Assembly: GCA_024711125.1 (NCBI GenBank)
Contig: JANJTM010000062.1
Location: 1 to 64,000 of the forward strand
DNA length: 64,000 nt
Direction: 5' to 3'
Source: Rhodothermales bacterium
Lineage (GTDB): Bacteria; Bacteroidota; Rhodothermia; Rhodothermales; UBA10348
Position 1 is the stretch's first letter. Each line of letters opens with the position of its first letter. The notes beneath the pieces are model-generated. The model searched no databases. It was given only the letters and a program-made list of their open reading frames with translations, and had not been told where the DNA came from. The translations under genes and the position numbers were made by a program. This document shows positions 1,762 through 39,147 of the stretch, piece by piece.

Positions 1762-2919
1762 ATGGCCGGGCTCTACCTGCATATCCCGTTCTGCGCCAGG
1801 CGCTGCGTTTACTGCGACTTCTACTTCGTGACGACGGCGAAGTCGCACACGCCGCTCGTCGAGGCGATGCGGCGCGAGATCGAACACCGCGCCTCGGAAT
1901 ACGGCGGTTTCGAGCCCGTGGAGACCATCTATTTCGGGGGCGGAACCCCTTCGCGGCTTACCCTCGACGAGGTGGACCGGCTGCTGCAGGCTTGCCACGA
2001 GGGTTTCGACACGCGAAACCTCGAGGAGGTTACCCTCGAGCTGAACCCCGACGACGCCGGCGTAACCTATCTGCGGGGCCTGCGGGACCTCGGCATCGAC
2101 AGGCTGTCCATCGGCGTGCAGTCCTTCTATGCCGACGACCTCGCGTTCATGAACCGGAGCCACGGCGAGGTGCAGGCGCGCGGGGTCGTGGACGCGGCCC
2201 GGGAGGCAGGCTTCACGAACCTGTCGGTCGACCTCATATTCGGCATTCCGAACCAACCGGCCGAGTACTGGGCCGCCAACCTCGAGCGTGCGGTCCGCGC
2301 CGGCGTTCCGCACCTGTCCACGTATTCCCTTACGGTCGAGGAGCGCACGGTGCTGCACAACCAGGTCGAGCGTGGGCTGGTCGTGCCCGCCTCGGACGAC
2401 GAACTCGCCGAGCGGTACCGGTTCACGATGGACTACCTGCGGGGTCATGGGTACGAGCACTACGAGATCTCGTCGTTCGCCCTGCCCGGAGCCCGGTCGG
2501 TGCACAACAGCCGGTACTGGAGCCACCGCAACTATCTCGGTTTCGGGCCGTCGGCCCACTCCTTCTGGTGGCGCGGCCTGCCCGCCCGTCGCTGGGCGAA
2601 CGTGCGCAACCTCGCCTCGTACGTCAGCCTGGTCGACCAGCGGCAGGAACCGGTGGACTTTCGCGAGACCCTGTCGCTCGACACCCTTGCCGACGAGTAC
2701 GTGATGCTTGCCCTGCGTACCGACGACGGGGTGGACCTGGACCTTCTCGAGGATCGCTACGGAACCGACCTGCTCGAGGATCGTGTCGACGCCCTCGCCC
2801 GCCTGGAAGGAGCCGGCATGATCCGGCCCGTCCGCAACCGGCGGGTGCGCCTGACCGATCTCGGAAAAACCCTATGCGACGCGGTCACCACCGAACTGCT
2901 GCCGTCCTCGGAGTCCTGA
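1762..2919 (+). CDS. hemW: Radical SAM protein HemW (haem chaperone; coproporphyrinogen III oxidase-like)
   Basis: A 385-aa radical SAM protein of the HemN/HemW family. The cluster motif CxxxCxxC is at Cys11, Cys15 and Cys18 (HIPFCARRCVYC), and the glycine motif YFGGGTPS sits near residue 57. The short N-terminus, with the motif starting at residue 11, is typical of HemW rather than of true coproporphyrinogen dehydrogenase HemN, which has a longer N-terminal region. HemW binds haem and is thought to insert it into respiratory enzymes, which fits the ctaA/ctaB genes further along. The C-terminal HemN_C winged-helix region is present (residues 300-375). The stop overlaps the next gene by 46 bases. 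Confidence 0.9.
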   Translation: MAGLYLHIPFCARRCVYCDFYFVTTAKSHTPLVEAMRREIEHRASEYGGFEPVETIYFGGGTPSRLTLDEVDRLLQACHEGFDTRNLEEVTLELNPDDAGVTYLRGLRDLGIDRLSIGVQSFYADDLAFMNRSHGEVQARGVVDAAREAGFTNLSVDLIFGIPNQPAEYWAANLERAVRAGVPHLSTYSLTVEERTVLHNQVERGLVVPASDDELAERYRFTMDYLRGHGYEHYEISSFALPGARSVHNSRYWSHRNYLGFGPSAHSFWWRGLPARRWANVRNLASYVSLVDQRQEPVDFRETLSLDTLADEYVMLALRTDDGVDLDLLEDRYGTDLLEDRVDALARLEGAGMIRPVRNRRVRLTDLGKTLCDAVTTELLPSSES

Positions 2920-3380
2920 TCCTCGTCGTCGTCGGCGCCGGGTGCCGGGGAGACGATCGCCGCCCCATCGCCATGGACATCCCCTTCCGGGCAGACGGCA
3001 TCCTGGAGTTTCTCGACGAGGGGGGCGCGGTCAAGCGCCGTATCGCCATCGAGATCGCCGAGTCGGACTCTTCGAAGATCCGCGGTCTCATGGACCGAAG
3101 GGCTCTTCCGGAGCTCGGCGGCATGCTGTTCGTCTACGACCGGCTCGAGCCCCGGTCCTTCTGGATGCGCTCGACGCCCCTGCCGCTCGATATCCTGTTC
3201 CTCGACGGGGACGATACCGTGATCAACGTGGTGGAACGTACCACGCCCTTTTCCGACACGCACATCGAATCGGCAGGGCCCGCGGGCCATGTCCTCGAGG
3301 TCCGGGCCGGAGCGACCGCCCGCTGGGGCGTGGGTCCGGGAACCCGCATCCGGTGGCGCCGCGTCGAACCGGAATCCTGA
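2874..3380 (+). CDS. DUF192 family protein, probable lipoprotein (first of a tandem pair)
   Basis: A 168-aa protein with a hydrophobic N-terminal segment ending VVGAGC, a weak lipobox with Cys24. Residues 40-165 form the DUF192 domain; the hallmark region runs RGLMDRRALPELGGMLFVY followed by SFWMRST and PLDILFLD. DUF192 proteins are small extracytoplasmic beta-rich proteins of unknown role. The ATG at 2874 lies inside the end of hemW in another frame, giving a 46-base overlap; this start keeps the export signal, and the next in-frame ATG would remove it. The next gene encodes a paralogue 13 bases downstream. Confidence 0.8.
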   Translation: MRRGHHRTAAVLGVLILVVVGAGCRGDDRRPIAMDIPFRADGILEFLDEGGAVKRRIAIEIAESDSSKIRGLMDRRALPELGGMLFVYDRLEPRSFWMRSTPLPLDILFLDGDDTVINVVERTTPFSDTHIESAGPAGHVLEVRAGATARWGVGPGTRIRWRRVEPES

Positions 3381-3393
3381 CGTGTCCTTCCCC

Positions 3394-3873
3394 ATGCGCT
3401 TCCTTCCCCCCCTCGCGATCGTCCTCCTCGTCACCGGCTGCGGCCCGACGCCCGAACCCGTCTCCGGACCGCCGGCCGCCGTGGAAGTGCCGTTCACCGC
3501 CGAAGGACGGCTCGCCTTCGTGCGGGACGGAAACCCGCTCGTCACGATCACCATCGAGATCGCGGACGACGATTCCACCCGCACACGGGGCCTGATGCAG
3601 CGTTCCGGCCTGCCCGAGAACTCCGGAATGCTCTTCATCTTCCCGCTCGAGGAAGTCCAGAGTTTCTGGATGGCGAATACGCAGATGGCCCTGGACCTCG
3701 TGTTCGTGGACGGGCAGGGACGCATCGACTCGATCGCACGGTACGCCAAACCGTTGTCCACCGAGCCGGTCGTATCGGCCGGACCGGCCCGCTACGTGGT
3801 GGAGGTCGAGGCCGGATTCGCCGACACGTGGGGACTCGTGGAGGGCGATTCCGTCGACTGGGAGCGTTACTGA
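3394..3873 (+). CDS. DUF192 family lipoprotein (second of a tandem pair)
   Basis: A 159-aa lipoprotein precursor: MRFLPPLAIVLLVTGC is a clean signal with lipobox VTGC. The mature protein is a DUF192 domain with the same landmarks as its neighbour: RGLMQRSGLPENSGMLFIF, SFWMANT and ALDLVFVD. The two products align along their whole mature length, so this is a tandem duplication. The start at 3394 gives the lipoprotein signal; an in-frame GTG at 3382 would only add four residues. The gene ends 41 bases before a convergent Fe-S carrier gene. Function unknown. Confidence 0.85.
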   Translation: MRFLPPLAIVLLVTGCGPTPEPVSGPPAAVEVPFTAEGRLAFVRDGNPLVTITIEIADDDSTRTRGLMQRSGLPENSGMLFIFPLEEVQSFWMANTQMALDLVFVDGQGRIDSIARYAKPLSTEPVVSAGPARYVVEVEAGFADTWGLVEGDSVDWERY

Positions 3874-3882
3874 TCCCGCGAG

Positions 3883-3909
3883 GCGCCCCGGCTGACAGGC
3901 TCCGGGCGC
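3883..3909. terminator. Weak bulged hairpin between convergent genes
   Basis: GCGCCCCGG (3883-3891) can pair with CCGGGCGC (3902-3909) with one bulged C and a 10-base loop. It lies in the 41-base gap between the DUF192 gene and the convergent A-type carrier. There is no T-run on either side, so termination is only suggested by position. Confidence 0.25.
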
Positions 3910-3914
3910 GGGGT

Positions 3915-4247
3915 TCAGAGCCCGAACGACTCTCCGCAGGCGCAGGTGCGCGCGGCCTGTGGGTTCGAGAAGTGGAATCCCTTGCCCTCGAGGCCGTCCG
4001 AGAAATCGAGTACGGTGCCTTCGAGGTAGAGTCGGCTTCGCTTGTCCACCACGACCCTCAGCGCCCCCTGAAGACTCACCGCATCGGTGTCCTGTACCGT
4101 CGTGTCCCACCCCAGCTCGTACGCAAGGCCGGAGCATCCGCCCTGCACGACGGCGATACGCAGGGCGGTCGTGGAGAGGTCCACCGCCTCGTCGGCGGCG
4201 GTCGAAGCGAGCTTCGCGAGCGCGCGGTCGGTGATGGTAACGTCCAT
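3915..4247 (-). CDS. A-type iron-sulfur cluster carrier (ErpA/SufA/IscA family)
   Basis: A 110-aa HesB/IscA-type carrier that accepts a nascent Fe-S cluster from the scaffold and delivers it to target proteins. The three invariant cysteines are present: Cys38 in GGCSGLAYELG and the C-terminal pair Cys102 and Cys104 in TCACGESF. The start at 4247 gives the family length; the frame is open upstream but shows no family similarity. A TACGTTCC sequence (4264-4257 on the minus strand) close to the start could be a -7 element. The gene diverges from the suf operon across a 184-base region and surely serves the same pathway. I cannot decide between ErpA and SufA from sequence alone. Confidence 0.9.
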   Translation of the reverse strand: MDVTITDRALAKLASTAADEAVDLSTTALRIAVVQGGCSGLAYELGWDTTVQDTDAVSLQGALRVVVDKRSRLYLEGTVLDFSDGLEGKGFHFSNPQAARTCACGESFGL

Positions 4248-35561: not shown

Positions 35562-35614
35562 CGGCCCCGGCCGGAAGACGCGCCGATGGAAATTCAACCC
35601 CTTCCCAGCTCCCC

Positions 35615-36427
35615 GTGGTTCCTGCCTGTCCGGGCATCGTGACCTGCACGACCGATTTCGGCCTGCGCGACGCGTACGTGGCCGCCATGAAGGGCGTGAT
35701 GCTCACCCTGGCCCCGGGCCTGCGGCTCGTCGACGTCAGCCACGAGATCGCGGCACAGGACATCATGCAGGCCGCTTTCGTCCTGCGCGCGGCCATCCCG
35801 TGGTTTCCCGAGGGAACGGTCCACCTCGCCGTCGTCGATCCGGGGGTCGGCACGGACCGCCGCGGGGTCATCGTCGTCAAGGACGGCCGCTACTTCGTCG
35901 GCCCCGACAACGGGCTCTTCTCGCTCGTGCTCGATTCCCCACCCGACGCGCTGTTTGCACTCGACCGTCCGGAGGCCTGGCGCACGAGGAGCCCGTCCAA
36001 CACCTTCCACGGCCGCGACGTATTCGCACCCGTCGCCGCGCGACTGGCGACCGGCGTCGAGCCGTCGGAACTCGGCACGCCGGCCGACGGGCTTCAGCGA
36101 TTTCACTGGGCACTCCCGATCGTCGACGAGCAGGGCGTGCGCGGTTGGGTCGTCCACGTGGACGGATACGGAAACTGCGTCACCAACATCCCGAGACCCG
36201 TATTCGAGCAGGCGATCCGTGGACGGCGGTTCAAATGCTACGTGGGCTCGACGATCCTCTCGTCGCTGAGTACGGCGTACGCCCAGGTTCCGCCGGGCGA
36301 ACCCCTCCTGCTGTTCAACTCCGTCGACCTCGCCGAGGTGGCGGTCTTTCGCGGCAGCGCCTCGGACCAGCTCGACATCCGCACGGGTACCGCCGTGAAC
36401 GTCGTCTTCCAGGACGACCGACCCTGA
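35615..36427 (+). CDS. SAM hydroxide adenosyltransferase (DUF62 family)
   Basis: About 270 aa. Members of this family split S-adenosylmethionine with water to adenosine and methionine and are related to fluorinase and chlorinase. The opening TCTTDFGLRDAYVAAMKGVM holds the conserved Asp of the active site, followed by VVDPGVGTDRR near residue 80, YFVGPDNGLFSLV, the Asn/His region NTFHGRDVFAPVAARL, and WVVHVDGYGNCVTNI. The start is uncertain. No ATG lies in frame before residue 25; I used GTG 35615, while GTG 35639 is also possible and overlaps the stop of an 18-codon frame at 35586-35642. It is followed after 2 bases by the sigma-like membrane protein gene. Confidence 0.88.
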   Translation: MVPACPGIVTCTTDFGLRDAYVAAMKGVMLTLAPGLRLVDVSHEIAAQDIMQAAFVLRAAIPWFPEGTVHLAVVDPGVGTDRRGVIVVKDGRYFVGPDNGLFSLVLDSPPDALFALDRPEAWRTRSPSNTFHGRDVFAPVAARLATGVEPSELGTPADGLQRFHWALPIVDEQGVRGWVVHVDGYGNCVTNIPRPVFEQAIRGRRFKCYVGSTILSSLSTAYAQVPPGEPLLLFNSVDLAEVAVFRGSASDQLDIRTGTAVNVVFQDDRP

Positions 36428-36429
36428 TC

Positions 36430-37665
36430 ATGCCGAATCCCTCCCCTGCTTCCTCCCACGTCGACGAGGCGTTCGCCCTCGCCCAACTCCTGTCGGCCGA
36501 TCGCCGCGATGCCCTCCGGCTTCTCGAACGTGCCATCGACGAGGCGGGGCCCGGACGCGGAGCCCGTTTTCCGCTGCTGCGGGCCGTGATCCAGGGTGCC
36601 GGCCTGTTTCCGACCGGAACGGAAGAGCCGGCCCCCCCGGACCTGCCGGGCGAGCCTCCGGCGCAGGAGGATCCGGCGGATCGCGGCCCGACGGCCGAAC
36701 CGGCCCTTCCGACCGGAAACACGCCCGCGTCGCTGGCCGAGGTCCTCGCCGGTCGCGACGTGCTGCGCCGCCTCGTTCCGCCCGCCGTCGCCCGGCTCGG
36801 ACCCACCGACCGTGCGCTGGCCTGGCTCGACGCCTCGGGACTCTCCAACGCCGCCGACCTCGGCGCCGTCCTCGGACTTTCGGCACCCGAGTCGCTCGCC
36901 TGGCTGGTCGGCTCGAGAACCCGCCTGGCGGCCGCGCTCTTCGACGGGGCAACCGCATCCGAACGACCGCTCGTTCGCGCCGCGCTGCGCGTGTCCGAAC
37001 CGGGAGACCTCGTGCGGCAGGCGCTCGGACCCCTGCTCGAGCCCGCCCCGGCCTCGCTCCGTGACCGGGCAACCCCGCCTCCCGCGCCCGCAGGCGATCG
37101 CCCACGGCCCCGGCGACGACTGGCGGGGCTCGTCCGGGTAGCCGCCTTCGTGGTCGTCGCCGCCGCCGTGGGGCTGTCCATCCGCTCGTTCCGACCGGAC
37201 CCGGCCGCGCATCCTGACGTCGTGACCTCGGACCTCGTCGAACTCGCCGTGGACGCGGCCGAGGATCTCCGCCCCGCGTTCCGGTCCGCGGGCGCGGAAC
37301 AGGCCGAGGTCTTCATTCTCGATCGCATCGGCTGGCGCCTGGTCGTGCCGTCCATCCGGGGCGGCCGGCTCGAAGGCGTCGGCGTGCATCTTTTCGACTC
37401 CGCGACCGAAACCCCGGCCCTGGTGTATGACGGCTCGGAGCGGGTCGTGGTGTTCGTCTTCACGTACGCGTTCCTGGACCGGGTGTCGCCGACCCTCGCC
37501 ATCGACCGGGCCATCCTGGACCAGGTGGCCGAAGAAGGGCGGTTTGCGGTAGTGGACGCCGGAAGGAGGCGTGCCCTCGTATTCCGCAACCGGGATGACG
37601 TGTACGTCGCCGTGACGAAGGGGGACCCGGTAGCGCTGCGCGACGCGGTTTCGTTCCCGGACTGA
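36430..37665 (+). CDS. Membrane protein: ECF-sigma-like N-terminus joined to an anti-sigma-like periplasmic domain
   Basis: A 411-aa protein with one membrane helix at about residues 231-250 (VRVAAFVVVAAAVGLSI). Residues 11-58 (DEAFALAQLLSADRRDALRL) resemble sigma region 2. After a Pro/Glu-rich linker (61-98), residues 108-172 resemble sigma region 4: PPAVARLGPTDRALAWLDAS, then LSNAADLGAVLGLSAPES, the place of the helix-turn-helix, then RTRLAAALF. The part outside the membrane (260-411) is alpha/beta, with RIGWRLVVPSIRG, VVVFVFTYAFL, RRALVFRNRDDVYVAVTKG, similar in style to the C-terminal domain of zinc-finger-type anti-sigma factors. I do not know a named family with this order. It is 2 bases after the SAM hydrolase gene. 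Function not assigned. Confidence 0.6.
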   Translation: MPNPSPASSHVDEAFALAQLLSADRRDALRLLERAIDEAGPGRGARFPLLRAVIQGAGLFPTGTEEPAPPDLPGEPPAQEDPADRGPTAEPALPTGNTPASLAEVLAGRDVLRRLVPPAVARLGPTDRALAWLDASGLSNAADLGAVLGLSAPESLAWLVGSRTRLAAALFDGATASERPLVRAALRVSEPGDLVRQALGPLLEPAPASLRDRATPPPAPAGDRPRPRRRLAGLVRVAAFVVVAAAVGLSIRSFRPDPAAHPDVVTSDLVELAVDAAEDLRPAFRSAGAEQAEVFILDRIGWRLVVPSIRGGRLEGVGVHLFDSATETPALVYDGSERVVVFVFTYAFLDRVSPTLAIDRAILDQVAEEGRFAVVDAGRRRALVFRNRDDVYVAVTKGDPVALRDAVSFPD

Positions 37666-37676
37666 TTCGTCGCCGC

Positions 37677-39071
37677 TCAGGCCTTGAGCGGCAGCTCGAT
37701 CCGGAACGTCGAACCCGACCCCGGTCGTGACTGCGCGAGCACGAGCGATCCGCCGTGGTAGTCCTCGACGATGCGCTTGGCCAGCGAGAGACCGAGACCC
37801 CAGCCGCGCTTCTTGGTCGAATACCCCGGTCGGAACACCAGTTTCGCCGAGCGCCGGTCGATCCCGCGCCCGGTGTCCGACACGTCGATACGGATTCGGC
37901 CGTCGGTTCTCGATGCCACCAGGCGGATCGTGCCCTCGGGGCCTTCGATCGCGTCCAGCGCGTTCTTGACCAGGTTCTCGATCACCCACTCGAACAACTC
38001 GGGATTGAGGTCGGCGCGCAGATCGGGCTGCACCTCCGTCTCGAGCCGCACACGGCGCCCCTGGTTGGGCAGGCGCGCGGCCATGTAGTCGACCGTACCC
38101 GCGATCACGGGCGCCAGCGCCTGCCGATCGAGCCGCGGCATCGACCCGATGTCGGAGAACCGGCTCGTGACCCGGCGCAGACGGTCGATGTCGTGGCCGA
38201 TCTCCACCAGCGCCGCCTGTTCCTGGTCGGGCGTCCGGTCGGGCAGGCGTAGCAGCTCCAGCCACCCCATCAGGCTCGAGATCGGCGTCCCCAGCTGGTG
38301 TGCGGCCTCCTTCGCCATGCCCACCCACAGGCTCGACTGCTCCGAGCGTCTCACGTAGGAGAATCCCACGTACCCGATCGCCACGAAAAGTGCCACGAAC
38401 AGCAGCTGGACCAGCGGAAACCTGCGCAGATCCGACACCAGGTCCGATTCCCCGTACAGCATGTACTGCACGAACCGGAACGACGGGGATCCGTCGACCG
38501 ACGGGAACGTCACGTCGATGGGGATGGGCTCGTGCTCGGCCAGGAGCCGGCGGCGGATCTCGTCGAGGCGTCGCGCCACGTCGGCGGCCCGCGCGCTGTC
38601 AAGCCCGGCCAGGGACTCCTCGGCCACCGGCACGTTGCGCCAGATGAGCGGGTTCTCCAGCGTGGAATCGACCAGCATCGCGGGAATTCCGAACGCGTTC
38701 GGCTCCAGGAACGCGTCGAGGATGAAGGAGAGATCCGACGACTGGGGCATGCCCTGCGCCCAGGCAACCGCGCGGCGGTAGTCGTCGAGCTGCGCCTGCC
38801 CCAGTCCCCGTCCCTCGTCGTCCGTCAGCCCACCGCGCGACAGCAGGCGATCCATTGCGCGCCATTCGGCCGCGTACGGGTTGGCCGCACCCATCTGTGC
38901 CGCTTTCGGAACCTGCGCCAGCGCCAGGGCCCACAGCTGGACGATGGAGGCCTCGCGTGCCCTGAGCTGCTGCACGAGTGCCCGCGTATACCACAGCGAG
39001 GATACCGCGATCGCGACGGCGAGCACGATGAGCCCCAGCTTGAGATTCACCGACAGCCTGTGCGCTTTCAT
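37677..39071 (-). CDS. Sensor histidine kinase
   Basis: A 464-aa two-pass inner-membrane kinase. Membrane helices are at about residues 10-27 and 219-238, with a 190-residue periplasmic sensor domain between. The phospho-acceptor is His258 in KEAAHQLGTPISSLMGW; N box ENLVKNALDAIEG, G1 DTGRGIDRRSAKLVF, and G2 GWGLGLSLAKRI follow. The H box resembles the NtrB/HAMP-less group. No response regulator is adjacent, so the kinase is an orphan in this window. It follows purA by 76 bases in the same direction, and ends 11 bases from a convergent gene. Signal unknown. Confidence 0.92.
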   Translation of the reverse strand: MKAHRLSVNLKLGLIVLAVAIAVSSLWYTRALVQQLRAREASIVQLWALALAQVPKAAQMGAANPYAAEWRAMDRLLSRGGLTDDEGRGLGQAQLDDYRRAVAWAQGMPQSSDLSFILDAFLEPNAFGIPAMLVDSTLENPLIWRNVPVAEESLAGLDSARAADVARRLDEIRRRLLAEHEPIPIDVTFPSVDGSPSFRFVQYMLYGESDLVSDLRRFPLVQLLFVALFVAIGYVGFSYVRRSEQSSLWVGMAKEAAHQLGTPISSLMGWLELLRLPDRTPDQEQAALVEIGHDIDRLRRVTSRFSDIGSMPRLDRQALAPVIAGTVDYMAARLPNQGRRVRLETEVQPDLRADLNPELFEWVIENLVKNALDAIEGPEGTIRLVASRTDGRIRIDVSDTGRGIDRRSAKLVFRPGYSTKKRGWGLGLSLAKRIVEDYHGGSLVLAQSRPGSGSTFRIELPLKA

Positions 39072-39147
39072 CGCCGAAACGGGTCTGTGACGGGGATGGG
39101 CCGCCAACCCCGGTCGCGTGGGAGGCGGACGTCCGCCCCGCTGTCCT

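Follow-up and report, generated by a model that had tools for sequence, protein, structure and literature searches.

The fusion gene and its neighbours

The window, by which we mean the whole stretch of 64,000 nucleotides of Rhodothermales DNA that was analysed, carries a pseudo-sigma/anti-sigma fusion gene (36430..37665, forward strand) that runs in a single frame from an ATG at 36430 to a stop codon at 37663-37665 and encodes a protein of 411 amino acids. Its start lies 2 bases past the stop codon of a DUF62 / SAM hydroxide adenosyltransferase gene directly upstream (35606..36427, forward strand, start codon unsettled; PF01887 at 1.2e-57 and PF20257 at 3.3e-21), and it is followed by a convergent histidine kinase gene (37677..39107, reverse strand) with HisKA and HATPase_c domains. 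The fusion gene is present in one copy in the window genome, a plasmid tblastn search with the window protein gave 0 matches, and orthologues occupy this locus throughout the order. The joining of sigma-like and membrane/periplasmic parts in one frame, as read from the letters in an earlier note on this DNA, is thus confirmed by a 411-codon reading frame that occurs order-wide 3' of DUF62.

Wherever the contig reaches far enough, the fetched loci show a constant gene order of YraN and MarR-like genes, DUF62, the fusion gene and a convergent kinase-PurA-STAS-SecF-SecD block, with the DUF62 gene upstream of the family gene at every locus where this flank is present. The arrangement beside DUF62 that the earlier note had proposed to look for in related genomes is therefore syntenic across nearly the whole order. 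Coupling to the SAM hydrolase gene, which had also been proposed, holds as adjacency, but the link between the two genes looks positional, since the ancestral ECF gene of sister lineages (see below) adjoins the same kinase and no DUF62 gene was detected near it within the regions fetched. The histidine kinase (window 37677-39107, reverse strand, AHQLGTPISSLMGW...; L198-L215) stays beside the ECF gene or its fused descendant class-wide and is possibly a functional partner.

An AlphaFold2 model of the window protein, built with 14 relatives (pLDDT 84), shows an N-terminal half that is all-helical. Helices at residues 6-21, 25-39 and 46-56 make up a shortened sigma2-like domain (residues 6-58, 36445..36603; all features of the protein lie on the forward strand) in which the helix of regions 2.3-2.4 is reduced compared to relatives such as L071, whose modelled sigma2 is complete. 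A Pro-rich disordered linker (residues 59-98, 36604..36723), with pLDDT of 46-64 over most of its length and below 50 at residues 79-96, leads to a sigma4-like helix-turn-helix domain (residues 99-173, 36724..36948; helices 99-122, 125-135, 141-148 and 152-173) that is assigned from the model, from fold matches and from relatives whose sigma4 exceeds the Pfam cut-off. The post-sigma4 helices (residues 179-215, 36964..37074; helices 179-188, 191-202 and 208-214) include a stretch at residues ~190-215 that can be aligned to the final helices (3-4) in the anti-sigma domain of anti-sigma factors from sister lineage f16 and ends in P-x-P-x-x-L-R. A single transmembrane helix follows (residues 231-254, 37120..37191), the N-side of which we place in the cytoplasm because it is flanked there by RPRPRRR, and the chain ends with a periplasmic sensor-type alpha/beta domain (residues 255-411, 37192..37662; modelled over about 269-406) recognised by its conservation, its homology to the f16 anti-sigma factor and an RseB/MucB-like fold. 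The zinc motif H-x3-C-x2-C is absent from all family members, the window protein is free of any cysteine, and neither Pfam nor the model shows a receiver domain in it, its C-terminal part consisting of the membrane helix and periplasmic domain.

A degenerate ECF sigma factor in the N-terminal half

The window protein is among the most diverged members of its family. Alone it has no significant match in Pfam or NCBIfam. When scored with an ECF profile made from 50 stand-alone sigma factors of this order, it reaches 6.1 bits and does no better than shuffled sequences, of which the best in 900 has 7.9 bits. Its sigma likeness is therefore not demonstrable from the window sequence by itself but is demonstrated by its orthologues. 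The same ECF profile matches orthologue L031 at 2.9e-17 and 49.3 bits, far above the best of the 900 shuffles, and a profile of 12 family members matches Mycobacterium tuberculosis SigE across sigma2-sigma4 at E=3.4e-14 as well as the sigma2 domain of SigR. Two relatives exceed the Sigma70_r4_2 Pfam cut-off of 25.7 bits with 31.1 and 37.5 bits, and orthologues match NCBIfam models of ECF sigma factors and of PhyR with E-values as low as 2.4e-13, a value reached by L031 with PhyR as its top match.

Structural comparisons point in the same direction. In Foldseek, the AlphaFold2 model of relative L071 finds ECF structures at E 2.6e-5, and its sigma2 and sigma4 domains superpose singly on solved ones at 1.2-3.9 Å rmsd. 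The window model aligns with SigW of the SigW/RsiW complex over 119 residues spanning about 1-173 (Z 9.4, 3.8 Å), through residues 1-173 with anti-sigma-bound RpoE (Z 9.1), with the sigma4 domain of SigL (3hug; Z 7.2) and through residues 3-195 with PhyR (Z 7.3). Its sigma2 and sigma4 domains are packed compactly as in anti-sigma-bound SigW, but we do not take this packing as proof of a lock in cis because the L071 model does not reproduce it.

Chance similarity of a generic helical helix-turn-helix region would explain why the window protein scores at shuffle level and lacks a Pfam match. Nevertheless, the scores of same-locus orthologues exceed those of shuffles by far and cover both domains in the right order, and fold, phylogeny and gene order are concordant. 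At the level of the family we therefore reject this explanation on the grounds of the shuffle-controlled ECF profile and give it next to no weight. The N-terminal half of the family is a degenerate ECF sigma factor by descent, which bears out the cytoplasmic half proposed in the earlier note. Missing profile matches together with an unrelated fold had been named there as the outcome that would refute the idea; the former is what the window protein alone gives, while family profile and fold both match sigma factors.

The extent of this degeneration is apparent from a comparison of 12 family members with 44 ECF sigma factors, mostly of the same order. The Gln of region 2.2 is found in 42/44 ECFs but in 1/12 family members (and in 2 of the 35 filled rows at this position of a 44-row family alignment), the region 2 Asn in 39/44 compared to 0/12 and the region 2 Arg in 42/44 compared to 1/12. 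Net charge differs likewise, with +4.3 for ECFs and -0.3 for the family in regions 2.3-2.4 (p 9e-8) and +3.6 and +0.1, respectively, in region 4.2 (p 5e-7), though these p-values overstate independence because the sequences are related. Core positions are retained, with Leu33, Leu118, Leu128 and Ala/Gly/Ser140 in 12/12 members and Arg123 in 11/12. Compared to a functional ECF sigma factor, the family thus has the sigma2-sigma4 fold in order (as seen via orthologues) without the polymerase- and promoter-contact residues and the basic charge. Judged from these alignments, the residues contacting the RNA polymerase core, the -10 DNA and the -35 DNA are lost in essentially all members while the fold is kept. 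Such losses are no proof that activity is gone, but they make a normal active sigma factor unlikely.

For close pairs with computable dS, the sigma half shows dN/dS values of 0.12-0.34 (most pairs are saturated), and within genus g12 the periplasmic domain reaches 0.05 compared to 0.12 for the sigma half. The sigma half is therefore under purifying selection that is less strict than that on the periplasmic domain, and plain pseudogene decay is ruled out where dS is computable, most pairs being saturated.

Ancestry of the two halves and distribution of the fusion

In a tree of 69 ECF sigma factors and nine family members, the family forms one clade (support 100/100) with a single ECF orthologue group of the sister lineages as its neighbours (L177 of f16, L173 of f17 and L167 of f18), and both together split from the 66 other ECFs, which include further ECFs of the same sister genomes, with support of 98/95. 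An earlier, smaller tree gives the same placement. Taken alone, the tree is weak for fine placement due to the long family branch and skewed composition, but gene order provides evidence that is independent of it because the ancestral ECF gene and the fusion gene are both convergent with an orthologous histidine kinase; for the canonical ECF this holds in 17 of the 18 sister-lineage regions that were fetched. The sole fetched sister-lineage locus with a canonical ECF that is not beside the kinase, L207 (G316:C8), has a YraN homologue in its region. Both sister genomes tested encode a close canonical orthologue (60-62% identity, 244 bits), compared to 0/12 Rhodothermales, where the top matches are ordinary paralogues of 28-39% identity. 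Based on tree, gene order and the absence of a canonical orthologue, the fusion gene descends, by position as well as by phylogeny, from that ECF gene, and the sigma half of the family descends from one ECF that is still canonical in the sister lineages.

The other half of the protein can be traced to the same neighbourhood. In f16, the canonical ECF gene (Sigma70_r2 at 2.1e-19, r4_2 at 1.7e-16) is overlapped by the gene of a zf-HC2 anti-sigma factor (1.8e-12 and 5.9e-9 in two genomes), and the family profile matches these anti-sigma factors over transmembrane helix and periplasmic domain at 2.5e-37 and 1.1e-34. Its alignment with the f16 anti-sigma factor L149 runs from profile position 143 and residue 98 onward and begins in the last helices of the anti-sigma domain, where ELERAQKQYLAQRRAPVPVPEELEARI is set against the post-sigma4 segment that ends in P-x-P-x-x-L-R, which places the fusion junction inside the anti-sigma domain. 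The family thus aligns with the last helices of a class I anti-sigma domain but does not have all four. By sequence comparison, the C-terminal half is homologous to the anti-sigma factor encoded beside the ancestral ECF in f16, with the zinc-finger part gone, which upholds the single membrane helix and anti-sigma-like periplasmic half described in the earlier note. We set aside the NCBIfam model NF052375 "antisigma" (five members, best match 2.8e-6) as evidence because its best-scoring member was not among the members rescanned; the match that we inspected covers residues 154-272 of L035 (E 0.0077), which extend from the last part of sigma4 across the transmembrane helix.

No part of the family is more conserved than the periplasmic domain, which matched none of the library families tested. 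Its nearest solved fold is the C-domain of RseB/MucB (Z 7.2, rmsd 3.3 Å over 91 residues; Foldseek E 0.015), and no match to RseB was obtained by hhalign with only four RseB sequences. Kinship with RseB is unsupported by this profile-profile comparison, and we retain fold similarity alone. While RseB is a soluble periplasmic protein that is not fused to a transmembrane helix, the domain of the family is linked to one. Lineages f17 and f18 encode membrane proteins of about 300 amino acids (L154-L162) that have the same periplasmic domain, lack the zinc motif and are not adjacent to the ECF gene; they are likely the unlinked anti-sigma factor of the f17/f18 ECF.

A single-sequence search detected homologues of similar length and domain order at the same locus in 47/60 relatives, and a class-wide profile search found at least 63 Rhodothermales genomes with a full-length copy in a single frame. 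The relatives are Rhodothermales and include Rhodothermus and Roseithermus. In lineages f9, f12 and f14 only the membrane/periplasmic part is present; the gene there directly follows DUF62, which indicates that the sigma half is truly missing. Since these lineages keep only membrane helix and periplasmic domain, the sigma half is dispensable in them and may be a shrinking remnant. Lineage f4 has a far more degenerate gene of 321-322 codons at the same DUF62/kinase position (L151, L152 and L153) with a barely recognisable sigma part. Neither a copy of the gene nor a close canonical orthologue of the ancestral ECF was found in family f15 (G040, G050, G059, G350, G353 and others), where the system seems to have been lost.

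Sigma and periplasmic halves lie in different frames in Roseithermus sacchariphilus (L075; CP030158.1, about 2829-4205), with the shift just before the membrane helix, and in G048 (L163; 4621-5933), with the shift just after it. Both genomes are complete or near-complete, and mutation, sequencing error and frameshifting are alternatives for the split. Genome G051 has two matches on different contigs, one with the sigma half and one without (C352 and C354), possibly reflecting a duplication or a strain mixture.

Possible function and relation to known systems

Pairs of ECF sigma factors and anti-sigma factors are a main route of envelope signalling. We assign a probability of about 70% to the explanation as a whole, in which, at the locus studied here, an ECF sigma factor became joined to the membrane-periplasmic half of its cognate anti-sigma factor, the sigma part was disarmed and the product signals in the way proposed next; an origin as ECF/anti-sigma fusion followed by loss of sigma function is, on its own, very probable. 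For the way in which such a protein might work, we propose that the periplasmic domain, derived from an anti-sigma sensor, would read a signal from the envelope. This signal would pass via the one membrane helix to the pseudo-sigma on the cytoplasmic side, whose output would be contact with a protein partner instead of guidance of RNA polymerase. Candidate partners are another anti-sigma factor, some regulator or the anti-sigma helix that the protein itself has retained, bound in cis. Helix 4 of class I anti-sigma factors binds sigma2 regions 2.1/2.2 (PMC7406223), which makes the contact in cis conceivable. We see the chances that the family protein is a signal transducer of this protein-contact type as evenly balanced. 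The broader proposal that the whole order has turned a two-gene ECF switch into one transmembrane receptor with a silent sigma-fold output, signalling by protein contact, is somewhat more tentative.

The earlier note had considered a decoy sigma, a membrane-tethered regulator or a new sensor, and the residue losses leave these options standing while disfavouring an ordinary active sigma. An active ECF sigma factor held at the membrane and freed by regulated proteolysis would have precedents in IutY and the ECF52 group, which share the domain order of sigma, transmembrane helix and periplasmic regulator (PMC8999054, PMC5411451), and it could account for the purifying selection on the sigma half. 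It is improbable nevertheless, given that polymerase- and DNA-contact residues and basic charge are gone in essentially all members, that f9, f12 and f14 have dropped the sigma half while keeping the rest and that sigma2 is shortened in the window protein itself.

Two further explanations differ in what they make of the sigma half, and we consider both unlikely but more plausible than an active sigma factor. The pseudo-sigma might be a decoy that titrates the anti-sigma domain of another system and frees that system's sigma factor upon a periplasmic trigger. PhyR is an ECF-like sigma2-sigma4 protein that works as a mimic (PMC4598750), and the idea would fit with PhyR as top NCBIfam match of L031, with the alignment of the window model to PhyR and to anti-sigma-bound SigW and RpoE, and with two zf-HC2 proteins in the window genome, one of them soluble and encoded beside an ECF; it is at odds with the lack of a receiver domain, with the L071 model that shows no compact form and with a cognate anti-sigma domain that has ceased to exist as a protein of its own in Rhodothermales. 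Alternatively, membrane and periplasmic part may be the working unit and the sigma half a structural remnant on its way out that serves as cap or in dimerisation or stability. The higher conservation of the C-terminal domain and its lower dN/dS in g12 would agree with such a remnant, as would the loss of the sigma half in f9, f12 and f14 and its further decay in f4, but the sigma fold is under purifying selection and has been retained in at least 63 genomes.

Sigma and anti-sigma functions had been described in the earlier note as normally residing on two proteins, but this is not where the novelty lies, as fusions are already known with IutY of Pseudomonas putida (ECF243), ECF48/52/53 and some ECF36 proteins (PMC8999054). 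IutY and its likes are single polypeptides with one or few transmembrane helices (PMC8999054, PMC5411451) and, like the window family, join an N-terminal ECF sigma, membrane passage and a periplasmic regulatory part in one chain. Their sigma is functional and that of IutY is released by proteolysis, whereas the polymerase and promoter contacts of the window family are lost and some of its lineages lack the sigma half altogether. The family thus conforms to the fused type in having an ECF module, transmembrane helix and anti-sigma-derived C-terminal part in one chain but, as far as its residues tell, probably not a transcription-competent sigma. PhyR of the Alphaproteobacteria is an anti-anti-sigma factor whose ECF-like module mimics a sigma factor and binds the anti-sigma factor NepR (PMC4598750). 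It shares the ECF-derived sigma2-sigma4 module with the window family at the level of detectable profile similarity, with use in protein contacts being a prediction for the latter, but is a soluble response regulator with a receiver domain, while the window family sits in the membrane, has a periplasmic domain and lacks a receiver. With the zf-HC2 class I anti-sigma factor of f16 (E 2.5e-37), the family has the homologous last anti-sigma helices, transmembrane helix and periplasmic domain in common, but in place of the zinc-binding three-helix bundle there is a fused sigma factor.

In the open-access literature searched, we found no membrane-bound fusion that combines a disarmed sigma with a two-gene precursor in sister lineages. 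What is new here is therefore the disarmed sigma within a membrane fusion whose precursor is preserved, fusions and sigma mimics each being known already. The states before and after the fusion are visible in living relatives, from a separate pair in sister lineages over a fused and disarmed form in Rhodothermales to the membrane half alone in several families, and the conversion of a transcription factor into a part of membrane signalling becomes testable. It is possibly a second case of sigma mimicry beside PhyR, and the tentatively proposed receptor would, if real, be a membrane-bound sigma mimic and a receptor type undescribed so far. For genome annotation, the family also carries a warning, as profile matches label some of its members as sigma factors though they very probably are not.
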